A stretch of DNA of 38,769 nt from Gemmatimonadota bacterium (lineage in GTDB: Bacteria; Gemmatimonadota; Gemmatimonadetes; Longimicrobiales; Gaopeijiaceae), in the NCBI GenBank assembly GCA_026706635.1, contig JAPOYJ010000042.1:1-38769 (forward strand). The letters are read 5' to 3'. Below are positions 1-27,916 of this stretch, piece by piece. The notes beneath the pieces were generated by a model. It ran no database searches. It had not been told where the DNA came from and saw only the letters and a list, made by a program, of their open reading frames with translations. Both the position numbers and the translations under genes were made by a program. Position 1 is the stretch's first letter; every line of letters begins with the position of its first letter.

Positions 1-15
1 CGCTGCGCTCTGCGT

Positions 16-170
16 TGCTCCTCGGACCAATAGCGCTGCGGCTATTGGCCCTTCGTCGCGCCTTGCCAGCGGGGCGCTTCGCCGGTCTCGGTGCTCGTCC
101 GGGCCTGTCCACGGACCGACAGCGCAGCGCCCCACTCGGTGCTCGGGCGAGATTATCTACGGACTGCTAG
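16..170 (-). repeat. Left terminal copy of a ~155-bp dispersed repeat
   Basis: Read on the minus strand, this segment aligns end to end with the last 154 bases of the window, so the window is bounded by inverted copies of one repeat. Bases 16-99 differ from the other copy at only about 3 positions; the gene-proximal half is more diverged. It contains a hairpin, CCAATAGC at 27-34 and GCTATTGG at 41-48. Its gene-facing edge is the 20-bp core at 151-170 ending CTGCTAG, two bases before the first start codon. No protein is encoded. The family is not recognised by name; it could be a REP or MITE-like element. Confidence 0.85.
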
Positions 171-172
171 CG

Positions 173-1447
173 GTGGTACGGATCGGAGAGATTGCGCCAG
201 GGTCGGTCGGCGAAGCCCTCGAGATGCGTGTTGGCACACGCATTATCGCCGTCAATGGGGAACGGGTGCGCGACGGGCTCGACTTCCTCTTCCGTGCCGC
301 CGACGGCGAGCTCGAGCTCGAGGCCGTAGATGCCGAGGGGAACCGCACCGTATACGAGATCGGCGGGTACGACGATCGGCCGCTGGGGATAGTCCCGGAC
401 CGGGACAAGATCAGGGAGTGCGCCAACGAGTGCGTCTTCTGCTTCATCGACGGCAATCCCCCAGACGCGCGGACGCCGCTCTGGCTGCGGGACGACGACT
501 TTAGGCTTTCCTTCACCTACGGCAGCTACGTGACCCTTACGAACCTGGGCCCGCGTGGCCTGGAGCGGCTGGTGGAGCAGCGCATCTCGCCGCTCTACGT
601 CAGCGTGCACGCGACAGACCCAGCCGTCCGGTCACGGATGCTGAAGAACCCTCGCGCAGGGCTGATCATGCAGCAGCTCCGGGAGCTGCTGGAGGGCGGA
701 GTGGAGTTGCATGCGCAGGTGGTGCTCTGTCCGGGGTGGAACGATGGCCCGGAGCTCGACCGCACGATCGAAGACCTCTACGGGCTGGGCGACGGCGTCC
801 TCAGTCTCTCGGTGGTGCCGGTGGGGCTGACGCGCTACAACGTGGGACGCCCGGTGCGCCTGCTCGATGCCGACGAGGCTCAAGTCGCCATCGGACAGAC
901 GGAATCGGCACGGCGGAGGGCGAGAGCCGAGAGAGGGCGGAGCTGGTGCTACGCGGCCGACGAGCTCTTCCTGATCGCCGATAGGGAGGTGCCCGCCGCC
1001 GCCTACTACGACAAGGGCGGGCTGGCGGAGAATGGAGTGGGGGCGCTCCGCGAGCTCCTCGACGCATTCGAGTCGGGGAAGGGGAGACTGGCGCCGACGG
1101 CGGGGGTGGAGAGGGTGCGCGTGGTGACCGGCGCGTCGATGGAGCCGTACTTCGCCGAGATGGCGACCGCCGTGCGAGCGGGGATGGGGTGCGAGACGGA
1201 GGTGGTATCCGTGCCCAACAGCTACTTCGGCCCCACCGTCACGATAGCCGGGCTCCTGGCGGGCTCCGACATCGTGGGGGCAGTTCGCGACTCCCGGCTG
1301 GGCGACCTCGTGCTACTTCCGCGCGCGGCCCTGTCGGGCGAGGATGCGTTCATCGACGGGATGCCGCTCGTGCAGGTCGAGCGGTCGCTGGCACCCGCGA
1401 CGGTGCGCACCGGACACGAGCTGGTCGAGGCCTTGGTCGGCTCGTGA
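173..1447 (+). CDS. PDZ / radical SAM / DUF512 iron-sulfur protein
   Basis: The 424-residue product belongs to the DUF512 family of putative radical SAM enzymes; its substrate is unknown. Residues 1-60 form a PDZ-like segment (GSVGEALEMRVGTRI). A CX3CX2C cluster at Cys83, Cys87 and Cys90 (CANECVFC) is the expected 4Fe-4S ligand set. The C-terminal part ends in the DUF512 region. Placement directly before der, plsY and gpsA matches a gene order seen in several phyla. The GTG start at 173 lies two bases after the CTGCTAG edge of the terminal repeat, and no clear Shine-Dalgarno is seen. The stop overlaps the der start (GTGA), suggesting translational coupling. Family call is firm; biochemical role is unknown. 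Confidence 0.9.
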   Translation: MVRIGEIAPGSVGEALEMRVGTRIIAVNGERVRDGLDFLFRAADGELELEAVDAEGNRTVYEIGGYDDRPLGIVPDRDKIRECANECVFCFIDGNPPDARTPLWLRDDDFRLSFTYGSYVTLTNLGPRGLERLVEQRISPLYVSVHATDPAVRSRMLKNPRAGLIMQQLRELLEGGVELHAQVVLCPGWNDGPELDRTIEDLYGLGDGVLSLSVVPVGLTRYNVGRPVRLLDADEAQVAIGQTESARRRARAERGRSWCYAADELFLIADREVPAAAYYDKGGLAENGVGALRELLDAFESGKGRLAPTAGVERVRVVTGASMEPYFAEMATAVRAGMGCETEVVSVPNSYFGPTVTIAGLLAGSDIVGAVRDSRLGDLVLLPRAALSGEDAFIDGMPLVQVERSLAPATVRTGHELVEALVGS

Positions 1448-2784
1448 GTGCGCCGGTAGTCGCGCTTGTTGGCCGCCCAAATGTGGGTAAGTCCACCTTC
1501 TTCAACCGCGCCCTCGGGCGAAGGGTCGCCGTCGTCGACGACACGCCCGGCGTGACCCGGGACCGCAACTTCGGGCTGACCGACTGGATCGGGCGCAACT
1601 TCTTTCTCGTCGACACCGGTGGGGTCGTGATGGGCTCCGACCGCGAGCTGGACCGCCTGATCCGCAGACAGGCGATGGTCGCGGTCCGGGAGGCTGACGC
1701 CGTGCTCCTCCTCGTGGACGCCAAGGTCGGCATTCACCCCCTCGACGAGCGGCTGGCCGATGAGCTCCGTAAGGTCCCGAAGCCCGTCCTGCTGACCGCC
1801 AACAAGGTGGACAACCTGCCGAACGACGAGTCGCACCTGGAGTTCTGGGGGCTCGGAATGGGGGAGCCGCACGCGGTCAGCTCGGTATCGGGACGCGGCT
1901 TCGGCGATCTCTTCGACGCCTTGCTCCCCCAACTGCCGGAGGAGAACAGCGCCCCCGACGAGACCGACCTCCGAGTTGCCGTGGTGGGAAAGCCGAACGC
2001 CGGAAAGTCGTCGCTCGTGAATCGTCTCTTCGGCCACGAGCGCGTGGTTGTGAGCGATGCGCCTGGCACGACGCGCGACCCCGTCGACCTCGAGTTGACG
2101 TACCACGGAGAGCGCCTCGTCTTCGTGGACACTGCCGGCATCCGGCGCCACTCCCGAATGAGCGATTCGGTCGAGTACTACAGCAGCCTGCGCACCGCGC
2201 GTGTCGTGCGCGAGGCCGATGTCTGCCTAGTGGTGGTGGACAGCGCGGAGGGTCTGCACGCGCAGGACATCAGGGTCGCCGAGAGGGCATGGGGGGCCGG
2301 CTGCGGTGTGATCATGGTCTGCAACAAGTGGGACCTGGTGGCCAGGGAGACGAACAGCGCGGCCCAATTCAGGCGCGCGGCCGGGGAGCGGGCCCCGTTC
2401 CTGCGACAGGTGCCATTCCTCTTTGCTTCGGCGCTGACGGGTCTGCGGGTCCGCAGGACGCTGGATCTGGTGCGTGCGGTCGCCCGGCGGAGATGGACGC
2501 GCATCGGGACGCCCCAGGTCAACGATGCGGTCGAGTCTCTGGTGCGCCGACAGCCGCCGCCGCACTACCGAGGACGCCCCGTAAGGCTGAAGTACGCCAC
2601 TCAGGCGCGCACCCTTCCGCCGACCTTCGTCGTCTTCGCCAACTACCCGGACGCGATCCCGGTCCACTACCGGCGCTACCTCGAGAACTCGCTTCGGGCG
2701 ATGTGGGACTTCGAGGGCGTGCCGGTCAGGGTGCGCCTGCGCCCGAGCGGCGGGCGAAGGACCTCGGCCGGGAAGGGGGGGTAG
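1444..2784 (+). CDS. der: GTPase Der (EngA), ribosome assembly
   Basis: Der is a double-GTPase needed for maturation of the 50S ribosomal subunit. Both G domains are intact. The first has GRPNVGKS at residues 10-17, DTPGVTRD, DTGG and NKVD. The second has GKPNAGKS at 182-189, DAPGTTRD, DTAG and NKWD. A C-terminal KH-like domain follows (RGRPVRLKYATQ). The product is 446 residues, normal for the family. The GTG at 1444 overlaps the upstream TGA. The reading frame stays open further upstream to 1189, but that extension only shadows the DUF512 gene. The next gene starts one base after the stop. Confidence 0.97.
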   Translation: MSAPVVALVGRPNVGKSTFFNRALGRRVAVVDDTPGVTRDRNFGLTDWIGRNFFLVDTGGVVMGSDRELDRLIRRQAMVAVREADAVLLLVDAKVGIHPLDERLADELRKVPKPVLLTANKVDNLPNDESHLEFWGLGMGEPHAVSSVSGRGFGDLFDALLPQLPEENSAPDETDLRVAVVGKPNAGKSSLVNRLFGHERVVVSDAPGTTRDPVDLELTYHGERLVFVDTAGIRRHSRMSDSVEYYSSLRTARVVREADVCLVVVDSAEGLHAQDIRVAERAWGAGCGVIMVCNKWDLVARETNSAAQFRRAAGERAPFLRQVPFLFASALTGLRVRRTLDLVRAVARRRWTRIGTPQVNDAVESLVRRQPPPHYRGRPVRLKYATQARTLPPTFVVFANYPDAIPVHYRRYLENSLRAMWDFEGVPVRVRLRPSGGRRTSAGKGG

Positions 2785-2785
2785 G

Positions 2786-3403
2786 GTGGAGAGCGTTCCC
2801 CTCCTCGCCCTGGCCGCGTACGCCGCTGGGTCGATCCCGTCGGCGTACTGGATCGGCAAGGTGTTCCACGGCAAGGACCTGAGAAAGCTCGGGAGCTCCA
2901 ACCTGGGGGCCACCAACGCACTCCGGGTGCTGGGGTGGCGAGCGGCCGTGCCAGTCGTGCTGGTGGATGTCTTCAAGGGGTTTGCGCCAGCCTGGTGGTT
3001 CCCGCTGCTCGATGGCCACGCAGGCGCTTGGCCGACGGTCCTCTACGGCGGGACCGCGATAGTGGGCCACGTCTTCTCGCTCTGGGTACGCTTCCGAGGC
3101 GGAAAGGGGGTCGCGACGGCCGCGGGTGCCCTGCTCGCGATATCCCCGATGGCCGTCGCTGTGGGGCTGCTAGCCTGGCTGGTGGCGCTCATCGCGCTCC
3201 GTACCGTCTCGGTCGCGTCGATGGTGGCGGCTCTCGCGGTGGGCTTGGCCGGATTGGTCATCCCGGGTGCGGACAGGGCCGTGCAGCTCTTCCTGGGGTC
3301 GATCGCGGTCTTCGTTGTGTGGGCCCATCGCTCCAATATTCGGAGGCTGATCGCAGGCACGGAGCCCCGGATCGGTGGCCGCCGAGGCGAGGGGGACGGG
3401 TGA
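2786..3403 (+). CDS. plsY: Acyl-phosphate:glycerol-3-phosphate acyltransferase PlsY
   Basis: PlsY transfers the acyl group of acyl-phosphate to glycerol-3-phosphate, the first step of phospholipid synthesis, in the inner membrane. The 205-residue hydrophobic protein shows the three conserved cytosolic motifs: GSIPSAYWIGK, GSSNLGATNALR and the glycine-rich FRGGKGVAT. About five membrane segments are visible. It starts with GTG one base after der and ends in a GTGA overlap with gpsA, which makes its substrate; the pair form a functional unit. Confidence 0.96.
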   Translation: MESVPLLALAAYAAGSIPSAYWIGKVFHGKDLRKLGSSNLGATNALRVLGWRAAVPVVLVDVFKGFAPAWWFPLLDGHAGAWPTVLYGGTAIVGHVFSLWVRFRGGKGVATAAGALLAISPMAVAVGLLAWLVALIALRTVSVASMVAALAVGLAGLVIPGADRAVQLFLGSIAVFVVWAHRSNIRRLIAGTEPRIGGRRGEGDG

Positions 3404-4449
3404 AGGTACCTGCCGGGGAGCGCGTCGCGGTGGTAGGCGGAGGTGCCTGGGGCACCGCCCTCGCCGACCTGCTGGCGAGGGGCGGCGGCAGCTCGGTTCG
3501 TCTCTGGGCCCGGGAGCCCGAGGTGGTGGAGTCGATCCGCGAACGCCAGGAGAATGCGGAGTACCTGAAGGGTCTGAAGCTCTGTACGGAGCTCAGAGCC
3601 ACCAGCTCGCTCGAGGGCGCTCTCGGCGGAGCGGGTGTCGTCATCTGGACGTGTCCGGTCCAGTACAGCTCGGCGCTGCTCGCCCGTGCGCGGGAGCACA
3701 TTCTGCCGGAGGCGATCGTCGTCTCGGCCTCGAAGGGGATCGAGGTGGAGACGCTGCGCCCAATGCACGAGATCCTGGGTGCGCACCTTTCCCCTGGGCA
3801 GAGCCGCCGCGTCTGCGCCCTCTCGGGGCCTTCGTTCGCCAGCGAGGTGGTCGCGAGAGTTCCGACCGCTGTCGTCGCCGCGAGTCGGGACCAGGCGGCC
3901 CGTCGCCAGGTGCAGTCCCTCTTTCAGACGAACCGCTTCCGGGTGTACACCAACCGCGACCTGATCGGCGTCGAGCTGGGTGGCGCCCTGAAGAATGTGA
4001 TCGCGCTCGCAGCCGGAGTGGCCGCAGGGCTCGAGCTTGGCCACAACACGGTGGCGGCGCTGATCACCAGAGGCCTGGCCGAGATTGGGCGGCTGGGGGT
4101 CGCGATGGGGGCTAGCGCCGCCACCTTCGCCGGGCTGGCGGGGATGGGCGACCTGGTCCTCACCTGCACAGGGGGTGCCAGCCGGAATCGAAAGGTCGGC
4201 GAGCGGCTGGGCAGAGGCGAGTCGATGGAGGAGATCATGGCCGGGATCAACACCGTGGCCGAGGGCGTAGCCACGGCCCACGCGGTGCGCGATCTTTCGA
4301 GGCGCCACGGTGTGGAGATGCCGGTCTCCACCGAGGTCTATGCGATAGTGGTGCAGGGACGGGATCCAATGGAGGCGCTCGACCGCCTGATGACCCGCGA
4401 GCCGACGTCGGAGGCCCCCGTCGCCTCCCCGAACCCGGAAAGGGGCTAG
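3400..4449 (+). CDS. gpsA: Glycerol-3-phosphate dehydrogenase [NAD(P)+]
   Basis: GpsA reduces dihydroxyacetone phosphate to sn-glycerol-3-phosphate for phospholipid synthesis. The 349-residue protein has the N-terminal Rossmann motif VVGGGAWGTALA, the SASKGIE and GPSFASEV motifs, and the C-terminal helical domain with the catalytic-lysine segment GGALKNVIALAAG. The GTG start at 3400 overlaps the plsY stop, implying coupling; the frame is open further upstream only by chance. A short proline- and glutamate-rich tail follows residue 335. Identification is secure. Confidence 0.97.
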   Translation: MKVPAGERVAVVGGGAWGTALADLLARGGGSSVRLWAREPEVVESIRERQENAEYLKGLKLCTELRATSSLEGALGGAGVVIWTCPVQYSSALLARAREHILPEAIVVSASKGIEVETLRPMHEILGAHLSPGQSRRVCALSGPSFASEVVARVPTAVVAASRDQAARRQVQSLFQTNRFRVYTNRDLIGVELGGALKNVIALAAGVAAGLELGHNTVAALITRGLAEIGRLGVAMGASAATFAGLAGMGDLVLTCTGGASRNRKVGERLGRGESMEEIMAGINTVAEGVATAHAVRDLSRRHGVEMPVSTEVYAIVVQGRDPMEALDRLMTREPTSEAPVASPNPERG

Positions 4450-4455
4450 TGCAGT

Positions 4456-4809
4456 TTGCGGCCGATCGCCCGAAAGACCTACTACTCGATTGGTGAGGTA
4501 AGCGACCTGGCTGGGCTCAAGACCCATGTGCTCAGGTACTGGGAGTCGCAGTTCGATGTGATCTCGCCCACAAAGCGCGGAGGCAAGCGCGTCTACCGAA
4601 TGCGCGACATCGAGACGATCCTCCTCGTCAAGCACCTCCTCTACGAGAAGAAGTTCACCCTCGAGGGCGCGAGGCGCGAGCTGCAGGAGCTGCGCAAGGG
4701 TGGCAGGGTTGCCGTCGAGGGAAGGGAACGGGCCGATCCAGCGGTGGTTGCGTCGATCAGGAAGGAGCTGGAGGAGCTGCGCGACACCCTGACGCTGCCG
4801 GACGGGTAG
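4456..4809 (+). CDS. MerR-family transcriptional regulator
   Basis: The 117-residue protein has an N-terminal winged-helix MerR domain at about residues 7-75 (YYSIGEVSDLAGL, LRYWESQF, KRVYRMRDIETI), followed by a charged, probably coiled-coil segment (GARRELQELRKGG and on). There is no C-terminal cysteine set or ligand-binding domain, so it is a small MerR-type regulator rather than a metal sensor. The apparent start is TTG at 4456, six bases after gpsA; no ATG or GTG alternative in this frame lies close upstream. Its targets cannot be read from the sequence. Linkage to gpsA and surE suggests co-transcription. Confidence 0.85.
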   Translation: MRPIARKTYYSIGEVSDLAGLKTHVLRYWESQFDVISPTKRGGKRVYRMRDIETILLVKHLLYEKKFTLEGARRELQELRKGGRVAVEGRERADPAVVASIRKELEELRDTLTLPDG

Positions 4810-4817
4810 CGGCCCGT

Positions 4818-4833
4818 GGCCACGGACTGCTAG
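4818..4833 (+). repeat. Short CTGCTAG repeat core upstream of surE
   Basis: The segment GGCCACGGACTGCTAG matches the core of the terminal repeat (TTATCCGCGGACTGCTAG). Its final CTAG touches the surE GTG start codon. It overlaps a perfect 12-bp palindrome CCGTGGCCACGG at 4814-4825. The motif occupies the place where a Shine-Dalgarno would be expected, and no good one is present. Confidence 0.7.
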
Positions 4834-5580
4834 GTGCGAATACTCTGCACGAACGACGACGGGTACCTGTCGCCGGGGATCCGGGTGCTGGCAGAGGCCG
4901 CGCATGCGATCGGCTCGGTGGATGTGGTGGCCCCCGACCGCGAGAGGAGCGCCTCTAGCAACTCGCTCACCCTTCACCGTCCGCTCCGCAAGCGCCGGGT
5001 CCCCGACGGCGCCACGATCGTCGACGGCACCCCCACCGACTGTGTCATCCTGGCGGTGATGGACTCCGCCGACCGGCTGCCCGACCTGTGCGTATCGGGG
5101 ATCAACCACGGTCCGAACCTCGGCGAGGACGTCTTCTATTCGGGGACGGTCGCCGCCGCGATGGAGGCGACGATCCTGGGGATCCCTTCGGTGGCCTTCT
5201 CCTACGTGGGCCAGGGGATCGAGGAAGTGGAGGGGTGGCAGGGGGTGGTCGGCAACCTGCTCCGCCAGATCGTCGCCCAGGGGATCCCTGAACACGAGCT
5301 CCTGAATGTGAACCTGCCGGCCTGCTCCCCGTCGGAGTTGCAGGGACTGCGCGTCACGAACCTGGGGCGCCGCCGGTACAGCGACGCCATCACGCGCTCC
5401 GAGGACCCGTCGGGGCGCGAGTACTACTGGATCGGCGGCGGCTACCCGCACTTCCACGGCGGTCCGGACGCGGACTTCCGCGCCGTCCAGGAGGGGTACG
5501 TCTCGGTCACCCCGATGCACCTGGATCTCACCAGCTACAGGCGCCTGGACGACGTGCGCAAGTGGAAGCTGACGCCCTGA
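4834..5580 (+). CDS. surE: 5'/3'-nucleotidase SurE
   Basis: SurE is a metal-dependent nucleoside-monophosphate phosphatase linked to stationary-phase survival. The 248-residue protein carries the canonical metal site at the N-terminus (CTNDDGYLSPGI), then SSNSLTLHRPL, DGTPTDCV and SGINHGPNLGEDVFYSGT. Length is normal. The GTG start at 4834 places the metal-binding NDDG at residues 7-10, as usual, and lies directly after a CTGCTAG repeat core. Upstream are the MerR gene and gpsA on the same strand. Confidence 0.96.
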   Translation: MRILCTNDDGYLSPGIRVLAEAAHAIGSVDVVAPDRERSASSNSLTLHRPLRKRRVPDGATIVDGTPTDCVILAVMDSADRLPDLCVSGINHGPNLGEDVFYSGTVAAAMEATILGIPSVAFSYVGQGIEEVEGWQGVVGNLLRQIVAQGIPEHELLNVNLPACSPSELQGLRVTNLGRRRYSDAITRSEDPSGREYYWIGGGYPHFHGGPDADFRAVQEGYVSVTPMHLDLTSYRRLDDVRKWKLTP

Positions 5581-5592
5581 AGCCTAGCGGTC

Positions 5593-5608
5593 TTCCACGG
5601 GCTGCTAG
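5593..5608 (+). repeat. Short CTGCTAG repeat core between surE and the DUF368 gene
   Basis: TTCCACGGGCTGCTAG matches the recurring core and is oriented with CTAG toward the downstream gene, 33 bases before its start. A degenerate relative (GATTGTCCGCGGGCTGCT) lies at about 6945-6962, just after the DUF368 gene. Confidence 0.6.
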
Positions 5609-5641
5609 TGCCGCTGGCGCGGGGGAGGCACGGGAGTCCCT

Positions 5642-6895
5642 GTGAAGCACTGGCTCGGCAACTCGTTGCGCGGTGTGTGCATGGGGGTGGCTGATGTGGT
5701 GCCGGGGGTATCGGGGGGCACGGTTGCGCTGATTCTGGGTATCTACCCGCGGCTGGTCGGGGCGGTGGGGAGCTTGGGCACGGAGACGCTGCGCATGATT
5801 CGGCGGCGTTCGTTCCGGTTGCTGGTGAAGGAGGGATTGAGGGATCCCGGTCGGCTGGGGGATACGCGGGACGGGACACACGCAGGACACGTTCTCCTGC
5901 TCGCCTCAGTGGTCGCCGGCATCGTGCCAGCCATAGCGATGGGTGCCCAGGTGTTGCCGCCGCTGATCAGCGCCCACCCGGAGCAGATGCGGGGGCTGTT
6001 CCTGGGTCTGGTCGCGGCCTCCGTGACCATTCCCGCCCGCCAGATCAGGCGCCGGAGCCTGCGGCGGTGGCTGCTGGCGGCGGGTGCGGCCGCCCTGACC
6101 GCGTGGTTCGTGGGTCTGCCAGCGCCCTCGACCCGTCATGCCGTCGGGACCGTGACGCTGGAGTTCGCCGAGCCGGTGGCGAGTGAGCTCCGGCTCACGC
6201 CCCGCAACCTCACGCTGACGGCTCCCGGCGAAGGCGGCTGGCCGGAGATCGAATACGGCCTCCGGGCCTCGCAGTACGTGCCCCGTGGCGCAACGGCCCT
6301 GGACGTTCAGGTCGTCGCCCGGATGGCGGGCGGCGCGGGCAACCTCCCCTCGGGCTCGATCCGCGATTGGGACGGCCCCGCGCAGGTCTCCTCGGTGCTT
6401 CAGCGCGAAGCGCTCACCGGCGGCCGCAACCCGAGCCTCGGGTACGTTTTCGTTGGCGGGGCGCTGGCGATCTCGGCGATGGTGCTGCCCGGCATTTCGG
6501 GTTCCTTCGTCCTCCTCCTCCTCGGCCTCTACCACTTCGTGCTGCATTCACTCGCCCTGGCGCTCCGGCACGGCGACCCCGGCGGCGCCGTTGTCGTGGT
6601 GACGATGCTGGCCGCAGTGGCCACAGGTCTGCTCACCTTCTCGCGCGTTCTGAAACACCTCTTTGCCAGGTGGAGAGGGGCGACGCTTGCCGTGTTGGTG
6701 GGCCTGATGGTGGGGTCTCTGAGGAAACTGTGGCCCTTCGTGGACCACGCCGGCGGCGGGCGGGAGGTGTTGACGCTGCCCTCGGCGGGAGACCCCGAGG
6801 CGCTGTCGGTGGGACTCATGTTCTGCGCCGGTGTTGCGGCCGTCCTGCTCCTGGATGCGGTGGGGCGGCGGCAGGGGGGTGGCGACCAGGGCTGA
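5642..6895 (+). CDS. DUF368 family polyprenyl-phosphate transporter
   Basis: DUF368 proteins (PopT group) are thought to recycle undecaprenyl phosphate across the inner membrane. The duplicated signature is present twice: MGVADVVPGVSGGTVALILG near residues 14-33 and ISAMVLPGISGSFVLLLLG near 277-295, consistent with an inverted-repeat membrane fold. At 417 residues it is far longer than the usual ~270-300. The excess is a soluble insertion at about 161-262 between the two repeats. It contains a beta-rich, Ig-like stretch (TVTLEFAEPVASELRL) and is probably extracytoplasmic. The GTG at 5642 is the likely start. Family call is strong; the transported substrate is inferred from the family. Confidence 0.88.
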   Translation: MKHWLGNSLRGVCMGVADVVPGVSGGTVALILGIYPRLVGAVGSLGTETLRMIRRRSFRLLVKEGLRDPGRLGDTRDGTHAGHVLLLASVVAGIVPAIAMGAQVLPPLISAHPEQMRGLFLGLVAASVTIPARQIRRRSLRRWLLAAGAAALTAWFVGLPAPSTRHAVGTVTLEFAEPVASELRLTPRNLTLTAPGEGGWPEIEYGLRASQYVPRGATALDVQVVARMAGGAGNLPSGSIRDWDGPAQVSSVLQREALTGGRNPSLGYVFVGGALAISAMVLPGISGSFVLLLLGLYHFVLHSLALALRHGDPGGAVVVVTMLAAVATGLLTFSRVLKHLFARWRGATLAVLVGLMVGSLRKLWPFVDHAGGGREVLTLPSAGDPEALSVGLMFCAGVAAVLLLDAVGRRQGGGDQG

Positions 6896-6969
6896 ATCCC
6901 GTAGTGGTCGGGCGAAGCCTCTGGACCGGATGCATCCCGGGGGAGATTGTCCGCGGGCTGCTCCAGCTC

Positions 6970-8202
6970 CTACCGACCCGACCGGCTCAACGACCACACC
7001 TGTACATATTCCACACCCAGCTCGTCCGTGGTGTAGCCGAGGATGTAGTCCTCCCCGATCTGGTAGACGCGCAGCCCGGCGGGAGTTTCCATCAAACCCA
7101 GGACGTGTCCCTCGGGGTCGAAGACCGTCCAGACCGGGTTGCCCCGGCCTTGTCCGGGCAGGGTGTACTCCTGAATCCACAGGTGGTTCAGCTCGTCGGC
7201 CAGGACTCTGCGGAACGCGGGGTGGGTCTCGGGGAGACGCACGTCGCGGTACCACTCCTGCTCCTCACGCCTTCTCGCCGCCCGTTCCGGCTCGGGCAAT
7301 CCCGCCACCCGGCGCTCGATATGCGCGTCCAGGTGAGCGGGCGTCGTGGGGATGAGATTGTGTTCCCGGCGGACGATGCGCTTCAGCGTGCCGTCGGTCG
7401 AGTAGACCCGGATCTCGTAGGTGTCGTCGGAACCGACAATGACATCGTCGCCCCATGGGACGACGACGTCGCCGCGGGAAAAGGGAATCCCGATGACCAT
7501 GATCCTGTCTTCCACGGGAGGCGAATACCACTCGCTCCCCGGGAAGGACCCGATGGTTGGGCCCGGTTCCCCTTCGGGGCCCCTGATCTCGTAGATGCTC
7601 CGTGAGCGCGAGAGCCCTGCCTGGGGACTCTCGGTGGGGTCCTGTCGTGAACCGATGACCAGACCGCCCGGCAGCACCGTTTCGACAGAGATGCGGACCC
7701 GGTCCTGCATCCCGAAAACGCGCCCGTAGTTGCCCTGCGAGTCGAAGACGGTCAGGCGATTCCCCTGCGACCAGCGCGCGACGAGCGAATCCCCCGGCCA
7801 GGGGTCGACATGAACGAGGTTTACGAACTCCCCGGGTCCTTCGCCCGAGCCACCCCAGGTAGCCAGGTGGACCCCCAGCGTGTCGAAGGCCCGCAACTCA
7901 CCGGAAGCACGGTCCGCCACGATGATCCTCCCGTCGGGCATTCGGAGAACATCGGAAAGGTCCAGCAGATAAGGGTCCGGTCCGGCGACCTCTCCGATCG
8001 ACAGGACGGGTTTTTCGCCGATCCGCCAACCGAGTCTTGAATCGGCGGGCGGACGGGCGTTCTCGACGACGGGGACCCCGGCGGTGTCCAGGATCTCGAA
8101 GGCGGGCACCGATGCCTCGGGGGGCACTGGTGGGGGATCGCCCGAATCGGCACAGGCGATACCGGTCAAGACCGCGATGGTGAGGCGAGCGGATGGTCTC
8201 AT
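6970..8202 (-). CDS. Six-bladed beta-propeller lipoprotein
   Basis: This 410-residue protein has a short N-terminal export signal ending in a possible lipobox (LTGIAC, Cys17), so it is probably a lipoprotein. The body carries repeated blade motifs of the NHL/6-bladed propeller kind: DVLRMPDGRIIVADRASGEL near residue 85, GDSLVARWSQGNRLTVFDSQG, PWGDDVIVGSDDTYEIRVYS and LNHLWIQEYTLPG. No catalytic residues are recognised. Such solitary propeller lipoproteins are abundant in Gemmatimonadota, with unknown ligands. It is convergent with the DUF368 gene (74 bp between). Confidence 0.75.
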   Translation of the reverse strand: MRPSARLTIAVLTGIACADSGDPPPVPPEASVPAFEILDTAGVPVVENARPPADSRLGWRIGEKPVLSIGEVAGPDPYLLDLSDVLRMPDGRIIVADRASGELRAFDTLGVHLATWGGSGEGPGEFVNLVHVDPWPGDSLVARWSQGNRLTVFDSQGNYGRVFGMQDRVRISVETVLPGGLVIGSRQDPTESPQAGLSRSRSIYEIRGPEGEPGPTIGSFPGSEWYSPPVEDRIMVIGIPFSRGDVVVPWGDDVIVGSDDTYEIRVYSTDGTLKRIVRREHNLIPTTPAHLDAHIERRVAGLPEPERAARRREEQEWYRDVRLPETHPAFRRVLADELNHLWIQEYTLPGQGRGNPVWTVFDPEGHVLGLMETPAGLRVYQIGEDYILGYTTDELGVEYVQVWSLSRSGR

Positions 8203-8573
8203 TTCATTGCGAGAGTGCTCGTTGTGGTTCGGACCCTAGGGGGGGCCGAGCCGCGCAGAGCGGTACACGGCCACCGGTCTGCGCGGGCGGGGTAACCCCA
8301 TGGGGCAGACTGGACAATGTCACCCCCTGGTGCCTAGGCCACCCGTTTCGGCTGGCTCTTCCGCGGGGCCGTGCTGCAGGAAGCGAGGCGATCGAGGCGG
8401 TGGAAGGCGACTCGCCGCGGGAGCCAGCCCACCTGCCAGCAGCGACGAAATCCATTCCGTCGAACATCTCGGGGTCCAGATCCTTCCAGACCGTCTCGCC
8501 ATCCACCACGACCACGACCTTGTTGCGGTCTTCCGTGCGATCTCGTGAACACGCCTGGCCGCACGGAGAAACG
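8203..8573. other. 371-bp intergenic stretch
   Basis: No convincing gene is visible. The only protein-like hint is on the minus strand near 8440-8515 (VVVVDGETVWKDLDPEMFDG). It faintly recalls the VVDG segment of TonB-plug domains but has no start context or continuation. No terminator or repeat was recognised. Confidence 0.5.
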
Positions 8574-8646
<73 letters not shown>

Positions 8647-8830
8647 TCCACGCGAAGGAAGATCACCGGCCCAGGTTGTGCGGACAAGGCGCGGTGGGGC
8701 CGGGCTCGACTCGCAACGGACGAAACACCCGTGCTGTCCAAGTGGGTCCGGCGGGGCGGGTGACCGGCGTTCGGGGGTGGGGCCTCCGAGCGGGTGCAGA
8801 CTACACGTTCGTGCGACGCGTCCGGATCGG

Positions 8831-9529
8831 CTACTGCGTCGCCGCGGCCACCTCTGCGCGGCGCATCTCGACCACGCCTCGGTCCGGGTCGTCATCGGCC
8901 ATCTGGGAGAGCATGCGGTCGTACAGCTCCATGGCGCCGGAGTCGTCGCCCTGGGCGCGCCTGAGCCTGGCGGCGTTCGCAAGCGCCTCGCGCACCTGGA
9001 ACTCTAGCAGCGCTTCGTCCGCCAGCCTGCGGTAGAGCTCCTCCGCGACCCTGAGGTCGCCCAGATCCTCGGTGATCGCAGCGAGCATGGCTGCCGCCTG
9101 GGAGCCCAGCGGCTCCTCGATCCGCCGTGCCAGAGGGCGGAGCGCCTCGGCCGCGGCTGCCATCTCGCCCAGCTCCACATTGACCTGCGCCAGCGAGATG
9201 CGGGCCTCGTCAACGACGCGGGTGCCCGCGAAGCGCTCCACGTAGAGCTCCAGGTCCGGTCGCAAATCGGCCGGATCGCCGCTGACGGCGCGTGCGTTGA
9301 GGACCTCCAGCTGCGCTGCCGCACTCGACTCCAGACTTGCTCGATAGCGGAGGTAGTACACCGACGTGACGATTCCAAGTCCCAGCACGACCACCGCCAA
9401 CGTGACCTTGCCGCGGTTTCGCTGGGCCCAGTGGCTCACCTCCAGCGTCTTGGCTACGAATGCGTCTTCCTTGTCGAGCGGGCTCTCTGGCTCGGGCGGG
9501 CGGTTTGTGGGCTTGCGATACCGTGACAT
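8831..9529 (-). CDS. TPR-containing single-pass membrane protein (YfgM-like)
   Basis: The 232-residue protein has a charged, proline-rich N-terminus, one membrane segment at about residues 41-60 (KVTLAVVVLGLGIVTSVYYL), then an alanine-rich all-helical region with TPR-like pairs (ARISLAQVNVELGEMAAAAE, ITEDLGDLRVAEELYRRL, ANAARLRRAQGDDSGAMELY). This is the architecture of YfgM/TPR_21 proteins, which work near the Sec translocon and periplasmic chaperones. No enzymatic motif is present. ATG at 9529 is a clear start. The exact role here is inferred only from architecture. Confidence 0.75.
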   Translation of the reverse strand: MSRYRKPTNRPPEPESPLDKEDAFVAKTLEVSHWAQRNRGKVTLAVVVLGLGIVTSVYYLRYRASLESSAAAQLEVLNARAVSGDPADLRPDLELYVERFAGTRVVDEARISLAQVNVELGEMAAAAEALRPLARRIEEPLGSQAAAMLAAITEDLGDLRVAEELYRRLADEALLEFQVREALANAARLRRAQGDDSGAMELYDRMLSQMADDDPDRGVVEMRRAEVAAATQ

Positions 9530-9676
9530 GGTCCTCTGGGCGAGTCTGGCTTCCTGATCTGGCGGCCGCGGGGCGATCGGTGGACCGCTCTCCTTCTGAA
9601 GCTACGAAATTGCCGCGCCGACGCCCGCGGATCAAGCGAATCTGGATCGCTGGTGTCGGGGCACCCGCGTAATGCT

Positions 9677-9704
9677 ATGTCGCATAATGTGCATTATGTT
9701 AAGT
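9677..9704 (+). other. dif: dif-like XerCD chromosome dimer resolution site
   Basis: The 28 bp have the dif layout: an 11-bp XerC arm ATGTCGCATAA, a 6-bp centre TGTGCA and an 11-bp XerD arm TTATGTTAAGT. Compared with the E. coli dif sequence as I remember it, 21 of 28 positions agree, including 10 of 11 in the XerD arm and the CGCATAA of the XerC arm. The site stands out as AT-rich in GC-rich DNA and lies in a gene-poor gap. XerC/XerD recombine dif at the terminus to resolve chromosome dimers. A dif copy carried by an integrated element remains possible. Confidence 0.85.
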
Positions 9705-10174
9705 CAGTTCGAACATGGCGACACGCCTGGGCTTCCTTCCCCATAGGAGGACAGCGACTTTCGTCTGCCCCGGGGTACCCCGGGAGCGTGCGCTGGCCGA
9801 TACCATCGCCCCAGCCAAGGGTCGCCTATCTGAACAGCGCCCTGATCCCCGCTGCCAGTCTCTCGTCGGCGCGCTGGACAGCTTCGCGACGATTGCTACG
9901 ATCAGCCAATTGGCCCGGCCGAGCCGTGACCATCCCCCGCCCACCGATCCGCCGGTGTGCAGTCACCCGAGAGCCCCGAAATGCCCTCTGCCACCATGAG
10001 GGAATCGAGGATCGCCTTGGTGGAATCTATGGCTGCGGCGTACTCCTCGGCGGCATGCCCAACGGTGTAGCCGGCGTCCAGTGGTGTGCCTTCACCGGCA
10101 GCCGGGACAGGAGCGACGAAGGACCGTGGTCGGACGGCGTTGCCGCTGGTCCGGCGGCTCGCAGCCGAACATAT

Positions 10175-10192
10175 TGTAAAGAACACCTTACA
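10175..10192. repeat. AT-rich 18-bp palindrome (diverged copy)
   Basis: TGTAAAGAACACCTTACA has the outer TGTAA and TTACA arms of the twin-palindrome family found at 24563-24601 and 28013-28126. The expected second palindrome after a 3-bp spacer (10196-10213) is badly degraded, so this is probably an old or partial copy. Confidence 0.55.
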
Positions 10193-10497
10193 CAATGTCA
10201 TGTCTACCATACTCCCTTCAGCGGCGTCGAGCCTCGCCGAAGCGACCTGCCCCCTCGGCGCCCACGCAGTGGTCGCAACCGTGCGCGCCTCACAAGCCCC
10301 GCGGCCCCGTTGGAGTCGCACCCATCTCCCGAGTATTGCAGCACCGATCAGGTCGAGCATCTGGGCTGCGACCGCGGCGACGCTGGCCCGCACTCCAGGT
10401 GTAGCATCCATCAGCGCCGGGAGCGGGACCGATCGATGCCTCCCCCCTGTTGATTGACGGTACCTCCGCCGCGCTTCCCCTCCGGGCGGGCTCGGTG

Positions 10498-12960
10498 TCA
10501 TGCCACGAAGCCCTGGTGCCGCAAACGCCCCGCCAGTCCCCCCATGTAGGGGGAGGCGAGCAGCACGAGGACAACCACCGCCGCCCCCACGCTGAGCCAG
10601 AGCGCCCGCCGCACCGTGGGGGCCGTGAAGCGCATTGTCACCGTGTGCTCCCCGGCTTCCGCGATCCGCACGGCCTGCAGGGTCAGGTTGGCCCGGTGGA
10701 CGTCGGCGGGCTCGCCGTTGACCTCGGCCACCCACCCCGGGAACCAGTTCTCCGATACGACCAGCAGCGCGGGGCCGGTTGTGCTCACCCTCAACTCCCG
10801 CTCGTCGGGCTCGTAGCTCACCCACTCGACCGGGCCTGAGCCCCCGCCCCCCACGGCCCCGGGGAGCGGTGCCGCCAGAACCGCTTCGCGCCCGGGATCG
10901 AAGTCCCTCGACAGAATGCGCGCGAGGGCGGCCTCGTCGTCTTCCATGACGGTGACCCAGTCTACCGTCCATGCACGCCCGAGGCCGCCGAAAGCATATA
11001 CCGCCTCGGCACCGTACGGCCCCTGTGCGGTACTCAGGGGTCGCGGTTCCTGGTCGGAGGGGGTGCCCGACAGGACGACGTATCTGACGTTCATCATTCG
11101 CAGCACGTTCGGATGCCGCGTGTTGGCCCCGCGGCTCTGGCTGCCCTCAATGCCCAGCAGCATGCGGTACCGCGCCAGATCGTTTGGGTGATGCCCCGCG
11201 AGGAGGTCTAGGCCGTGCATTGCAAGGTCGACTTTCTGGTCGCTGCGGAAGTCCCGGCGCATGTCGGCGACCCGGAACGGTGATTCCTCCGCATGGCGCT
11301 CCTGCAGGAAGCGGACATTGGCGGTCGGCGCCGCCCACTCGTAGAAATCCACCGTTCGGATGAAGGCGCGGTCGATGCGGCCGAGATCGATGGTGACGAG
11401 TATTGTCAGCGCGGCCAGCGCCACGGTGCGCGAGATCCTACCTTCGCCCGCCGCCCAGACCGTCGTGACCGCGAGCCCCCCCAGAAACAGCGCGATGCCG
11501 AAGCCGCGCGTGATAAAGGGCGTCGCGCGTGCCAGGGCAGCCTGCTGGAAGTCTGCCATGCCGGTGTGGATGGTGCTCGTCCAGATGCCGGTGAGCACAC
11601 CGCTGGCTTGCAGGAGCAGTCCCAGGAGCAGGAGCCCCAGGAATCCCAGGAGGGCCTGGCCCCGCCTGCTCTTCAGGAATTTCCCCGGCGTGCGCGATTC
11701 CCGGACCAGATCCTCCACCCCGAGCACGAAGAGCGTCACGACCCCGAAACTCACCAGGAAGGCGGCGATAGCCGGGACTCGAAAGAGGGACATCCCTGGA
11801 ACGATCTCGTAGACGATGCGCCACACGGGCGTGTGCGCCCCTAGGGCGTAGAGCAGCCAGAGTGCGCCGAGTCCCCCCATGAACCATCTCAGCGGTCGTC
11901 TCCGATGGCCTAGGAGACCGAAGAGCGCCAGCACCAGCACAGTCATGCCCAGATACTCATGATTGAGCTTGAGTGCGTTCCTTCCCCAGTAGGTGCCCTG
12001 TCCCCAGCTCGCGTCGGCGGCCGTGTTGCCGACGAACTCGGGAACCGCCAGCGCCAGGACTTCCTCCGGATGAAAGGACCAGGAGGTCGCGTAGGCGATT
12101 CTCTGCTCCTGCGTGGCATCCACCGTGGTGGCGACGCGGCGAGAGTACTCCCCGACGTATGCGGCCGCTGGCGCGAGTTGAAACGCGGCGAGCGCGCCCC
12201 CGAGGAGCGAGCTGCCCAGGAAGACTCCCATGACCAGCGTTGCCCGGGAGAGGCGGTGTCTCCGCTCGGTTGCCTCCCCCTCCCTCCACATCAGGATCGT
12301 GCGGAAGACCGCATACGCCCCAACTGACCCGAAGAGGAAGTAGCCGGTCTGGAACTGGGTAGTTAGAAGGGTCAGGGCGACAGCGCCCGCCAACCCCGCC
12401 GCCGTTCGCCCGGAGGGTCGGCGCAGCAGTGCGTCGGCGGCCCAGAAGACCATCGGCGTCAGCGACGCGACCATGAGCTTCCCGTCGTTGCCCCCTAGGG
12501 TGAGCGTGACCATCACCGGAGCCATAAGCCAGGCCACGCCTCCGACTGTGGAGGCGGGTCGCCCAAGGCCGAGGCTCCGCGCCCAACCGTACATGAAGAA
12601 GCCCCCGGCGAGCACGTGCAGCACGAGCTTCCAGCCCAGGGCACGGTAGGCGTCGGTCAGGAAGTAGAGCAGGCTGGTTGGGTAGATGAAGTCCCCCCCC
12701 GAAATCGCCTCGAACATCGGGACCCCGCCAAGCAGCCTCGGAGCCCAGAGCGGGAAGTCACCTCCGGTGATCCGCTCCGCCAGGAATGCGCGCGCCATGT
12801 AGCCCAGCGCAAAAGTGTCTTCTCCGTAGAGCATCAGGTTGGAGAAGATGAACTCGCCGTACAGGATGACGGTCGCGAGCAGGAAGATCCCCGCGGTCAG
12901 CCAGAACGGCGGCCGCAGCACGCCCTCCTCCGCCTGGCCCGAGCTGCCTGGATGCTGCAT
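10498..12960 (-). CDS. YfhO-family multi-spanning membrane protein (GT-C-like)
   Basis: The 820-residue protein belongs to the YfhO family of large membrane proteins, thought to be polyprenyl-phosphate-sugar-dependent glycosyltransferases. The N-terminus has one TM helix, then an acidic extracytoplasmic loop (LYGEDTFALGYMARAF), followed by about a dozen hydrophobic segments. The C-terminal ~230 residues form a soluble domain (from about VRFLQERHAEESPFRVADMR) with a beta-rich portion (LLVVSENWFPGWVAEVNGEP), then a final TM helix. ATG at 12960 is the start. It diverges from the acyl-modification cassette. A truncated paralogue lies at 21932-22207. Sugar donor and acceptor are unknown. Confidence 0.85.
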   Translation of the reverse strand: MQHPGSSGQAEEGVLRPPFWLTAGIFLLATVILYGEFIFSNLMLYGEDTFALGYMARAFLAERITGGDFPLWAPRLLGGVPMFEAISGGDFIYPTSLLYFLTDAYRALGWKLVLHVLAGGFFMYGWARSLGLGRPASTVGGVAWLMAPVMVTLTLGGNDGKLMVASLTPMVFWAADALLRRPSGRTAAGLAGAVALTLLTTQFQTGYFLFGSVGAYAVFRTILMWREGEATERRHRLSRATLVMGVFLGSSLLGGALAAFQLAPAAAYVGEYSRRVATTVDATQEQRIAYATSWSFHPEEVLALAVPEFVGNTAADASWGQGTYWGRNALKLNHEYLGMTVLVLALFGLLGHRRRPLRWFMGGLGALWLLYALGAHTPVWRIVYEIVPGMSLFRVPAIAAFLVSFGVVTLFVLGVEDLVRESRTPGKFLKSRRGQALLGFLGLLLLGLLLQASGVLTGIWTSTIHTGMADFQQAALARATPFITRGFGIALFLGGLAVTTVWAAGEGRISRTVALAALTILVTIDLGRIDRAFIRTVDFYEWAAPTANVRFLQERHAEESPFRVADMRRDFRSDQKVDLAMHGLDLLAGHHPNDLARYRMLLGIEGSQSRGANTRHPNVLRMMNVRYVVLSGTPSDQEPRPLSTAQGPYGAEAVYAFGGLGRAWTVDWVTVMEDDEAALARILSRDFDPGREAVLAAPLPGAVGGGGSGPVEWVSYEPDERELRVSTTGPALLVVSENWFPGWVAEVNGEPADVHRANLTLQAVRIAEAGEHTVTMRFTAPTVRRALWLSVGAAVVVLVLLASPYMGGLAGRLRHQGFVA

Positions 12961-13215
12961 CGTCTGGTTCTCCCTGCTCTTCCTGGCGTGTCCCGGCCCA
13001 GGAGGGCCGAGGTTCGGGTGCGCGGGTCTTTGGCGCGACGCGGAGGTGGGGCCCGCACCCGCAAGGGCGTACGCACGGATACGGTACCCCGGTTGCGCGG
13101 TCGATTCAAGCCGAAGCGGCAGTTCGGTTGTTGGTGCCGGGGGATTGGATTATCCTCATACCGAGTCCCCTCCCCACCTGCCCCGCACAGAGAGCGGACC
13201 CGCAAGTACTGCCGA
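12961..13215. promoter_or_regulatory. Divergent intergenic region, probable promoters
   Basis: These 255 bp separate the minus-strand YfhO gene from the plus-strand MaoC-led cassette, so promoters for both must lie here or nearby. The most AT-rich patch (about 13136-13165) contains TTGGATTATCC. No confident -35/-10 pair or operator could be assigned. Confidence 0.4.
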
Positions 13216-13659
13216 ATGACCTCCGAGCTACTGGCCAATGACATCAGAACGTCCAGGCTTACCTTGGACGAGGCATCGATGCGGGCGTTCGCGGAGCTGT
13301 CGGGAGACACGAACCCTATCCACGTCGACGGAGACAGCGCGCGCAGGTCCGGCTTTCCGAGACGGGTTGCGTACGCCGGCCTTCTCCTCGCAGAGGTCAG
13401 CCGGATGATCGGAACCCGCATTCCGGGGCCCGGGTCGCTCTGTGTCTCGTACCAGTTCGACTTCAAGGCTCCCGTGCTCGTCGGCGAATCGGTCCTGTTC
13501 GAAGTCACCGTCACCCACTACTCGGAGGCGGCGCGCGTGGCGCTCCTTGGGTTCGTTGTCCGCCGGGAGCACGATCAGGAGGTTGCAATGGAGGGCTCGG
13601 CGACGGTCCGCATTCCGGTCGATGAAGGGCGCAGGGATCACCTGGCCACCGACGGCTGA
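13216..13659 (+). CDS. MaoC-like hotdog hydratase / acyl thioester protein
   Basis: The 147-residue protein is a single hotdog domain of the MaoC (R)-specific enoyl-CoA hydratase type. The hydratase signature is visible at residues 28-36 (ELSGDTNPIHVD), with Asp31 and His36 as candidate catalytic residues. It is followed by ARRSGFPRRVAYAGLLLAEV, the substrate-facing helix region. ATG at 13216 gives a normal-length protein; the open frame further upstream overlaps the YfhO gene on the opposite strand and is ignored. It heads a plus-strand cassette, 9 bp before the FkbH-like gene, so it may act on an ACP- or CoA-bound acyl intermediate. Confidence 0.85.
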   Translation: MTSELLANDIRTSRLTLDEASMRAFAELSGDTNPIHVDGDSARRSGFPRRVAYAGLLLAEVSRMIGTRIPGPGSLCVSYQFDFKAPVLVGESVLFEVTVTHYSEAARVALLGFVVRREHDQEVAMEGSATVRIPVDEGRRDHLATDG

Positions 13660-13668
13660 AGGAGCACG

Positions 13669-15513
13669 ATGGCCTCTTTGGGACCCGCACAGGTCGTGCA
13701 GGACGGGGACTGGAGCGAACGCCTGCGCAGGGCGGCCGCGAAGCTTGCGTCTGCCCCGTCCCATGCGAATGCGCACGAGGCCTACCGGGCCGGCATGGAG
13801 GCGCCGGCCACTGTGGAGGGGTTCGCCCCCCTGAATTGCGGCATCCTGCGAAACGTGACGGTGGAGCCGTGGCTGCCGGAGTTGTACGGCGCCCTCCTGC
13901 AGCGCGGCATCAAGACGACTTTCCTGGTCGGCGACTACGCCGTCTACGAGCCCTACGCGTCCGCTCCCGCCGACCTGGGCACCCCCATGCCGGACTGCTT
14001 CCTGGTCTACCTGGATGCGGGGGTCCTGGCGGGCGACGCGCGCCACGATCCGCCTGCGGACATGGGAGGAGCGCTCCTGGGACGCATCAGGGCGATCGTG
14101 GGCGGCCTGATCGAGCGCACCAGCGCCAACGTCGTCGTCACCAACCTCGCGCCGGAGCCGCATCCGGTTCATTCGGTGCATGGGGACCAGGATCGGAAAG
14201 GGTGGCCACACCTTCGCAGGACGGTGAACGCGGAGCTGACAGCCGCCCTTTCCGAGGAGCCACGGGTGTCGATTCTGGATATGGACCGAATCGTAGGGGA
14301 GTTCGGGGCTTCCCGCGCGTACGACATGCGAATGTACATGACCGCCGCCAGTCCCTTCGCGGTCGAATTCCTGCCACAGCTGGGGCGGGCGTTTGCGGCG
14401 ACGGTCGCAGCCGCCGTCCTGCCTCCGAGGAAGTGTGTGGTCGTCGACTGCGACAACACCCTCTGGGGGGGCATCCTCGGCGAAGACGGTCCAGAGGGAG
14501 TCGCGATCGGGACGAACTACCCCGGGTCCGCCTACCGCGAATTCCAGCTTTTCCTTGCCGGGCTCGCCCGCAGGGGATTCCTCCTGGCCCTGAACAGCAA
14601 GAACAACGAGGGCGACGTGTTGTCGTTCATGGAGGAATGCCCGGAGATGGTCCTCGGGCCTGCCGACTTCGCGGCCTGGCGGATCAACTGGGAGGACAAG
14701 GCGGCCAACCTGGCGGAGCTTGCGCAAGATCTGAACATAGGGCTCGACTCGATGGTCTTCATCGACGACAGTCCCTTCGAGTGCGAACGCGTGAAGTCGG
14801 CGCTGCCCGAGGTTCAGGTCGAACGGTTCCCCGCCAACCCCCTTGAAGTCCCGCGGTATCTGTCCGCAATCCAGGGAGTCGAGCGGCTCGGCGTCGGAAG
14901 CGACGACCTTGCCCGCACCGAGTCCATCCGCGCGAATGCACGCCGCGAGAGACTCAGGAGGGAGACCCCGGACCTGGGTTCATTCCTTCGGAGCCTCTCA
15001 ATCAAGCTGACGATCGCGCGACAGGACCGGACGGCGGTGCGACGGATCAGCGAGCTCTGCCAGCGCACCAACCAGTTCAACCTGACGACCAAGAGATACA
15101 GCGTGGGCGACATCGAACGCCTGATGGACGAGGGCGCAGTCTATACCATGAGCATGAAGGATCGTTTCTCGGACTACGGAACCATAGGAGTCGCGATCGT
15201 GGATACGGGTTCCGGGGACCGCTGGGAGATCGATTCCTTCATGTTGAGCTGCCGGGCATTCGGACGCGGGGTGGAAGTGGAATTGCTCAAGGCGGTGCTG
15301 GAGGACGCCGGGACGGCGGGTGTGCGGTCGGTCGGAGCCCGCCATGTTGCCACCGCAAAGAACGGAATGACGCGCAACTTCTTCCCCGATCACGGGTTCG
15401 CCGAGACGGAGGGGCCGAACGGCGAGGTAAGGTTCGAGATGCGCATCGGTGCGGCCGACGGGCGTCGGACGGCAGGCGTCGGCGAGGTGCGGCGAGTGGA
15501 GTCTCCGACATGA
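13669..15513 (+). CDS. FkbH-like HAD-IIIC enzyme
   Basis: FkbH-type proteins load a three-carbon unit from 1,3-bisphosphoglycerate onto an acyl carrier protein and remove the phosphate. This 614-residue protein has the family layout. An N-terminal SGNH-like region covers about 50-250. The HAD-IIIC domain has motif I DCDNTLWGG at 260-268, LNSKNNE near 308-314 and FIDDSPFE at 364-371. A GNAT-like C-terminal domain contains the NQFNLTTKRY and FSDYGTIG segments and ends near residue 600. Catalytic Asp260 and Asp262 are intact. Its stop overlaps the ACP start (ATGA), strongly implying that the two proteins work together. The substrate could instead be another phosphorylated acid. Confidence 0.92.
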   Translation: MASLGPAQVVQDGDWSERLRRAAAKLASAPSHANAHEAYRAGMEAPATVEGFAPLNCGILRNVTVEPWLPELYGALLQRGIKTTFLVGDYAVYEPYASAPADLGTPMPDCFLVYLDAGVLAGDARHDPPADMGGALLGRIRAIVGGLIERTSANVVVTNLAPEPHPVHSVHGDQDRKGWPHLRRTVNAELTAALSEEPRVSILDMDRIVGEFGASRAYDMRMYMTAASPFAVEFLPQLGRAFAATVAAAVLPPRKCVVVDCDNTLWGGILGEDGPEGVAIGTNYPGSAYREFQLFLAGLARRGFLLALNSKNNEGDVLSFMEECPEMVLGPADFAAWRINWEDKAANLAELAQDLNIGLDSMVFIDDSPFECERVKSALPEVQVERFPANPLEVPRYLSAIQGVERLGVGSDDLARTESIRANARRERLRRETPDLGSFLRSLSIKLTIARQDRTAVRRISELCQRTNQFNLTTKRYSVGDIERLMDEGAVYTMSMKDRFSDYGTIGVAIVDTGSGDRWEIDSFMLSCRAFGRGVEVELLKAVLEDAGTAGVRSVGARHVATAKNGMTRNFFPDHGFAETEGPNGEVRFEMRIGAADGRRTAGVGEVRRVESPT

Positions 15514-15743
15514 GCGAGAGCACGGAAGCGACTCTCGAGAGGATCTTTCGGAGTGTGCTCAAGGTGCGGCCGGGTGAGGACGTAGCTTCGGTGTCTGTCG
15601 AGTCGCATGGCTGGGACTCGGTCGCCCACCTGAATCTCATCCTGGCGGTCGAACAGGAGTTCCGCTTCATGATGACTCCAGATGAGGCGTCGGCTGCGAG
15701 TTCCTTCCGAGCGATGCTGGATCTGGTGAACAGCCGGCGATAG
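15510..15743 (+). CDS. Acyl carrier protein
   Basis: The 77-residue protein is a stand-alone acyl carrier protein. The phosphopantetheine attachment site is Ser37 in GWDSVAHL, followed by the usual helix II/III pattern (LNLILAVEQEFRFMMTPDEA). The start codon ATG overlaps the stop of the FkbH-like gene, so it is most likely the dedicated carrier for that enzyme rather than the fatty-acid AcpP. It is one base from the next gene. Confidence 0.93.
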   Translation: MSESTEATLERIFRSVLKVRPGEDVASVSVESHGWDSVAHLNLILAVEQEFRFMMTPDEASAASSFRAMLDLVNSRR

Positions 15744-24562: not shown

Positions 24563-24601
24563 TGTAAACCATGGATTACATATTGTAAAGCATACATTAC
24601 A
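24563..24601 (-). repeat. Twin AT-rich 18-bp palindromes upstream of wecB
   Basis: Two 18-bp palindromes, TGTAAACCATGGATTACA (24563-24580) and TGTAAAGCATACATTACA (24584-24601), are separated by 3 bp, giving a 21-bp centre spacing, two helical turns. Read on the minus strand, order and flank match the copies at 28013-28126. The pair lies between the GT2 gene and wecB. It could be a dimer-binding operator or part of a mobile repeat. Confidence 0.8.
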
Positions 24602-27034: not shown

Positions 27035-27916
27035 TCAGGCCCCGGGCGGCGCGTACCTCGACCTCATGCGCGCGGTCAGCGACGGACCCAGGTACAGCTC
27101 GGCCACCTCGTCGTTCCACACCAGGTCGGAGACGGTGCCGCTGACGCGGATCTCGCCCTCGTACATGATGTAGGCGCGATCGACGATCTCCAGCGTCTGC
27201 TCGACGCTGTGGTCGGAGATGATGACGCCGATCCCGCGAGTCTTCAGCTGGGCGACGATCTCCTGGATATCGTGCAGCGCGATTGGGTCGATGCCGGCGA
27301 AGGGCTCGTCGAGGAGCATGAACTTGGGGCGCTGCACGAGGGCGCGGGTGATCTCGAGCCGGCGGCGCTCCCCTCCCGAGAGCGAGAAGGCCTTGGCACC
27401 GCGAAGGTGCGCGATCGAGAGCTCGTCCAGGAGCTCGTCCAGCCTGGCCGCCCGCTCCTTGCGGGTGAGTGGCAGCGTCTCGAGAATCGACATGACGTTG
27501 TCGGCGACGGTCAGCCGCCGAAACACCGACGGCTCCTGCGCAAGGTACCCAACCCCCATCCGCGCCCGCCTGTACATCGGCACCGAGGTCAGCTCGGCGT
27601 CGTCGAGGAAGACCCTGCCCCCGTCTGGCCCGATCAGCCCGACGAGCATGTAGAAGGTGGTGGTCTTCCCCGCCCCGTTGGGACCGAGGAGAGCGACGAT
27701 CTCCCCCTGCTCGACCTGAATGTCCACCTCGGCCACCACCCGCCTCTTCTTGTAGACCTTGGTGAGGGACTCCCCCCGGAGTACCGAGACCGGTTCAACC
27801 GACTCGGACTCCTCCGCGACGACCGATAGTGCGACCGCGATGGGCTCGACGTAGGTGGTGTCGCCCTCCAGCGACGCCTCGCCGACAGTCGCCGGCGCGC
27901 CCTCCCCTCCGCTCAT
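27035..27916 (-). CDS. lptB: LPS export ABC transporter ATP-binding protein LptB
   Basis: LptB powers LPS extraction from the inner membrane. Walker A GPNGAGKTTT, Q-loop region LAQEPSVFRRLT, signature LSGGERRRLEITRAL and Walker B FMLLDEPFAGID are intact. The ATG at 27916 overlaps the ostA stop (ATGA) and is preferred; a GTG at 27931, five codons earlier, directly follows a CTGCTAG repeat core. With either start the protein carries an unusual ~45-residue acidic extension before the ABC domain (conserved part from SVLRGESLTKVYKKRRVV). The lptF/lptG permease genes are not in the window. Confidence 0.95.
   Translation of the reverse strand: MSGGEGAPATVGEASLEGDTTYVEPIAVALSVVAEESESVEPVSVLRGESLTKVYKKRRVVAEVDIQVEQGEIVALLGPNGAGKTTTFYMLVGLIGPDGGRVFLDDAELTSVPMYRRARMGVGYLAQEPSVFRRLTVADNVMSILETLPLTRKERAARLDELLDELSIAHLRGAKAFSLSGGERRRLEITRALVQRPKFMLLDEPFAGIDPIALHDIQEIVAQLKTRGIGVIISDHSVEQTLEIVDRAYIMYEGEIRVSGTVSDLVWNDEVAELYLGPSLTARMRSRYAPPGA

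Follow-up and report, generated by a model that had tools for sequence, protein, structure and literature searches.

The locus raises the question of whether a 28-bp sequence, lying in a gap between two genes, is a chromosomal dif, the site at which bacteria resolve sister chromosomes that are still joined once replication ends. The window, by which we mean the whole stretch of DNA analyzed, is the entire contig C86 (38,769 nt) from a MAG of a Gemmatimonadota bacterium of the order Longimicrobiales. The MAG comprises 86 contigs and 2.81 Mb, with a completeness of 96% and 67% G+C. Its lineage is uncultured and is represented here by MAGs only. The named relatives that matched through the YfhO protein encoded next to the site are Gemmatimonadetes or Gemmatimonadota MAGs, three of them labelled Longimicrobiales, and the isolate names of some suggest a sponge origin. 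Observed here were the sequence of the site, its uniqueness and conservation, its terminus position in relatives, genes of the XerC-like, XerD-like and FtsK-gamma types in the source genome, and the polarity of the surrounding octamers. With this evidence, we are almost certain that positions 9677–9704 are the single chromosomal dif of this Longimicrobiales genome, at which FtsK-steered XerCD resolution would take place.

The 28-mer at 9677–9704, ATGTCGCATAATGTGCATTATGTTAAGT, can be written by parts as ATGTCGCATAA-TGTGCA-TTATGTTAAGT:

Positions 9677–9687, forward strand: dif left arm, predicted to bind XerC (ATGTCGCATAA); TCGCATAA / TCGTATAA is retained among genus relatives.
Positions 9688–9693, forward strand: dif central 6-bp spacer, the predicted strand-exchange region (TGTGCA).
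Positions 9694–9704, forward strand: dif right arm, predicted to bind XerD (TTATGTTAAGT); TTATGTNAA is retained phylum-wide.

This is a 28-bp site of 11-6-11 layout with conserved XerC and XerD arms, as expected of a chromosomal dif. It shares 21 of 28 positions with E. coli dif and 18 of 28 with B. subtilis dif, and 9677–9704 was the best-scoring position in the window for both. The preliminary description had already pointed out the 11-6-11 layout, the 21/28 agreement with E. coli, a CGCATAA left arm and a near-perfect XerD arm, all of which the sequence confirms. Under an independent-base model, the chance of at least 21 matches in 28 is 8 × 10−10 per position, giving an expectation of ≈0.005 such matches on both strands of the 2.81 Mb genome. 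A search of the source genome with an independent query, the E. coli dif core, gave one match, at 9677–9704 with two mismatches, and the reversed core, included as a control, gave 0 matches in the same genome. The scan for further 28-mers of this form that had been proposed found no second full copy in the source genome. A single copy per chromosome is expected of dif, and the relatives, too, nearly always have one.

Comparison with related genomes, also proposed in the preliminary description, yielded a matching and nearly always single site in the relatives. The window core was found at ≤3 mismatches in 15 of the 59 genomes searched (the source genome included), with one match each. The relaxed form CATAAT-N4-ATTATGT-N-AA, at ≤2 mismatches, matched 51 of the 59, mostly at one full site; additional relaxed-form matches in some genomes correspond to an unrelated scattered element and not to dif. 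Across the phylum, the pattern CRYATAA-N5-ATTATGTNAA matched 55 of 61 genomes at ≤1 mismatch, nearly always once, and the reversed pattern had no match in the same 61. The central spacer was the variable part among relatives (TATGTA, TGTATA, TATATA, TAGGTA, etc.). The commonest form of dif in the genus was CGCATAATATGTATTATGTAAA, with TTATGTAAA as its right arm. The window site departs from this form in the center and by TTATGTTAA in the right arm, which it shares with E. coli dif and with certain other Gemmatimonadota. The two forms differ at 3 of the 22 core positions, which we counted against the dif reading. The phylum-wide pattern is usable for locating termini in other Gemmatimonadota MAGs.

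The xerC and xerD genes that had been suggested as a further check were represented in the source genome by XerC-like and XerD-like genes. The XerD-like protein, on C5, scored 323 bits against a strict NCBIfam equivalog cut-off of 330, and the XerC-like protein, on C12, scored 259 bits against a cut-off of 335. XerD and XerC were the best matches of the two proteins, both with scores below the cut-off; that of the XerD-like protein is only narrowly below, that of the XerC-like protein well below, in part because the gene is truncated by the contig end. We counted these scores, too, against the dif reading. The ORF beside it on C12 encodes what is presumably an HslV-like protein. One FtsK with a gamma domain was found, on C30.

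GC skew and the distance to dnaA were analyzed by proxy in relatives from its genus and family, because the source genome was too fragmented. In three relatives assembled as single contigs, dif lies roughly opposite dnaA: 48.0% of the chromosome apart in G001 (4,091,820 bp; dnaA at 264,914, dif at 2,229,593), 51.3% in G021 (4,472,315 bp; dnaA at 1,407,289, dif at 3,700,495) and 44.2% in G026 (4,224,903 bp; dnaA at 3,125,510, dif at 1,257,892). An initial skew sample of 20 stretches each from G001 and G021 was noisy, and the G001 sample was then tripled to a final 60 stretches of 20 kb (1.2 Mb). In this sample, GC skew averaged +0.018 on the arm running from dnaA to dif and −0.018 on the arm leading from dif back to dnaA (Mann–Whitney p = 7 × 10−6). 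The best symmetric terminus in G001 was at 2.20–2.25 Mb, with dif at 2.23 Mb. In the complete relatives, dif is located at the replication terminus, and in the densely sampled G001 it coincides with the GC-skew switch. These results support the previous proposal that the window spans the replication terminus, and the skew comparison suggested along with it gave, by proxy, a sign flip at dif in G001. With the site, the terminus of this uncultured bacterium can be placed on its 86-contig assembly.

The KOPS motif of E. coli is GGGNAGGG, of which GGGCAGGG is one form. The strand polarity of GGGCAGGG in the G001 sample was 85:32, placing it third of 12,900 octamers, and that of all GGGNAGGG octamers together was 202:93. 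In the window, the same octamers were polarized on both sides of the site:

Positions 1–9676, forward strand: left KOPS-polarized flank, with 5 of 5 GGGNAGGG octamers directed at dif.
Positions 9705–38769, reverse strand: right KOPS-polarized flank, with 9 of 11 GGGNAGGG octamers directed at dif.

Overall, 14 of 16 KOPS-type octamers are directed at dif (two-sided p = 0.004), a polarity partly confounded with gene orientation, which contributes to it. An FtsK gamma domain and polarized octamers beside the site are both features of a dif locus. By analogy with the known Xer system, the site would be bound and recombined by XerCD in an FtsK-dependent manner. The polarized KOPS-type octamers would guide FtsK, which would pair the two dif sites of a chromosome dimer at the septum. 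XerC and XerD would then exchange strands at the arms (9677–9687 and 9694–9704), across the 6-bp center, and this exchange would convert the dimeric chromosome into monomers.

The site resembles E. coli dif, which is served by XerCD and FtsK, in its 11-6-11 layout, 21 of 28 positions, near-identical right arm and single copy, as well as in its KOPS-polarized flanks and the XerC-like, XerD-like and FtsK-gamma proteins encoded by the host. It differs in the outer left arm (the XerC arm of E. coli dif is GGTGCGCATAA) and in two of the six central bases. The B. subtilis dif (CodV/RipX), to which the window site is identical at 18/28, has a different left arm, and its right arm is TTATGTAAA, as in the commonest genus form. 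The window site is a real but ordinary dif, a standard bacterial feature, and dif in this phylum was already predicted in 2011 (PMC3025954). Kono et al. predicted dif in the one Gemmatimonadetes genome studied (1/1), for which the Firmicutes profile was the best starting profile (PMC3025954). That genome and the source of the window belong to the same phylum, the latter to a lineage represented by MAGs.

The genes around the site are arranged differently from those of the relatives. Most genus relatives have a TPR_21 gene directly adjoining dif on its left and genes for PRODH and YfhO on its right, all directed at dif. The window has the following features next to the site:

Positions 8831–9529, reverse strand: gene for a TPR_21 protein (PF09976) flanking dif, on the opposite strand in relatives where it adjoins dif.
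Positions 9826–10065, reverse strand: what is left of a gene for a beta-lactamase-like serine hydrolase (PF00144), within the gap to the right of dif.

Compared with the genus relatives that have the TPR–dif pair, the TPR gene of the window is flipped, PRODH is ≈9.5 kb from dif, and the first gene to the right of dif is YfhO; the local gene order is rearranged relative to the relatives, which we also counted against the dif reading. A simple codon-usage gene caller gave no gene between 9529 and 10498, confirming the gene-poor gap of the preliminary description. The gap is partly explained by the serine hydrolase remnant, which matches positions 10082–10222 and 11011–11109 of a G008 locus (L105). 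These two segments are the ends of a PF00144 gene that is intact beside dif in G008, and ≈790 bp between them are missing in the window.

The left flank of the window is closest to G003 (SurE 88% and TPR 70% identity). On the right, YfhO is 84–85% identical at three loci, on contigs of G008, G020 and G022, whereas SurE of these three genomes is 74–76% identical to that of the window. Likewise, identity to G008 is 85% for the two genes at window positions 10488–15669, YfhO and the one after it, compared to 74% for SurE. As YfhO is close to G008, G020 and G022 and SurE is close to G003, the sequences suggest that the right flank of dif was exchanged between lineages. A wider scenario, in which recombination at or near dif remodeled the terminus by flipping the TPR gene, removing the serine hydrolase and exchanging YfhO and the next gene with the G008 lineage, is speculative and rather unlikely. 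If true, the DNA next to dif would be exchanged particularly often among lineages within the genus.

The rearranged gene order might also be expected if the site were not used for chromosome resolution at all, being instead a scar or att site of a mobile element that uses Xer (IMEX or pdif module). The same 22-mer on five environmental viral contigs could be taken in the same direction. However, we rejected these matches as evidence of a mobile element because the flanks of the viral contigs are unrelated; these contigs have 33–55% GC, and a search of viral contigs for a 24-bp genus-type form gave no match. The flanks of the window site, in contrast, are chromosomal and common to relatives. 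An IMEX would have two dif-type copies flanking the element, whereas the source genome has one copy, with no second. We consider a mobile-element origin very improbable. The viral contigs (IMG/VR, L175–L179, n = 5), in which the exact 22-bp core of the window dif stands within unrelated flanks, are possibly phages that use the host XerCD.

A regulatory operator that resembles dif by chance is less probable still, and we give it hardly any weight. It would belong to the scattered elements of the TGTAAAC...GTTTACATTATGTAAA type, which are abundant, with 347 matches in the source genome, and whose ATTATGTAAA recurs in the right arm of dif in relatives. The window site, however, lacks the TGTAAAC half-sites and has a CGCATAA left arm that is absent from the scattered element. 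Moreover, it is a single site in the source genome and nearly always so in relatives throughout the phylum, and it is at the terminus in relatives where this could be tested.

The scattered element is a separate entity, a 39-bp unit in which 3 bp separate two 18-bp palindromes (TGTMAAC-N4-RTTKACA). Weaker dif-like matches in the source genome turned out to be copies of this abundant element, and were rejected as dif candidates. The 347 matches were obtained with a 27-bp core pattern at ≤3 mismatches and are counted over both strands, many places being matched on both; the reversed control of the core gave none in the source genome. The window contains the following copies:

Positions 24563–24601: 39-bp element.
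Positions 28013–28051: 39-bp element.
Positions 28088–28126: 39-bp element.
Positions 10175–10213: weak copy of the 39-bp element.

The density of the element was ≈10 per Mb in sampled G001 and 47 per Mb in sampled G021; the sample of the source genome (G000) was biased, having been picked around known 39-bp sites. Most copies lay between genes, without being strongly concentrated at promoters, and Pfam annotation of the adjacent genes revealed no shared gene class. The spacing resembles that of tandem ArgR boxes, and some copies are embedded in a longer repeat. It is possible that the element is a regulator site or a mobile repeat. Three copies with a 249-bp spacing occur in G021 (G021:C1:207291-207808; L077 7291-7808), in each of which a longer repeat (GCATTCGAACGGCGATGCATCCG...) encloses the 39-bp element, and related flanks are found in G014 and G018. 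In the window, the two copies at 28013–28126 lie inside an open frame (27913–30135), near its 3' end, and the predicted C-terminus gains repeated residues (IVNHGLHIVNHSLQ) from them.
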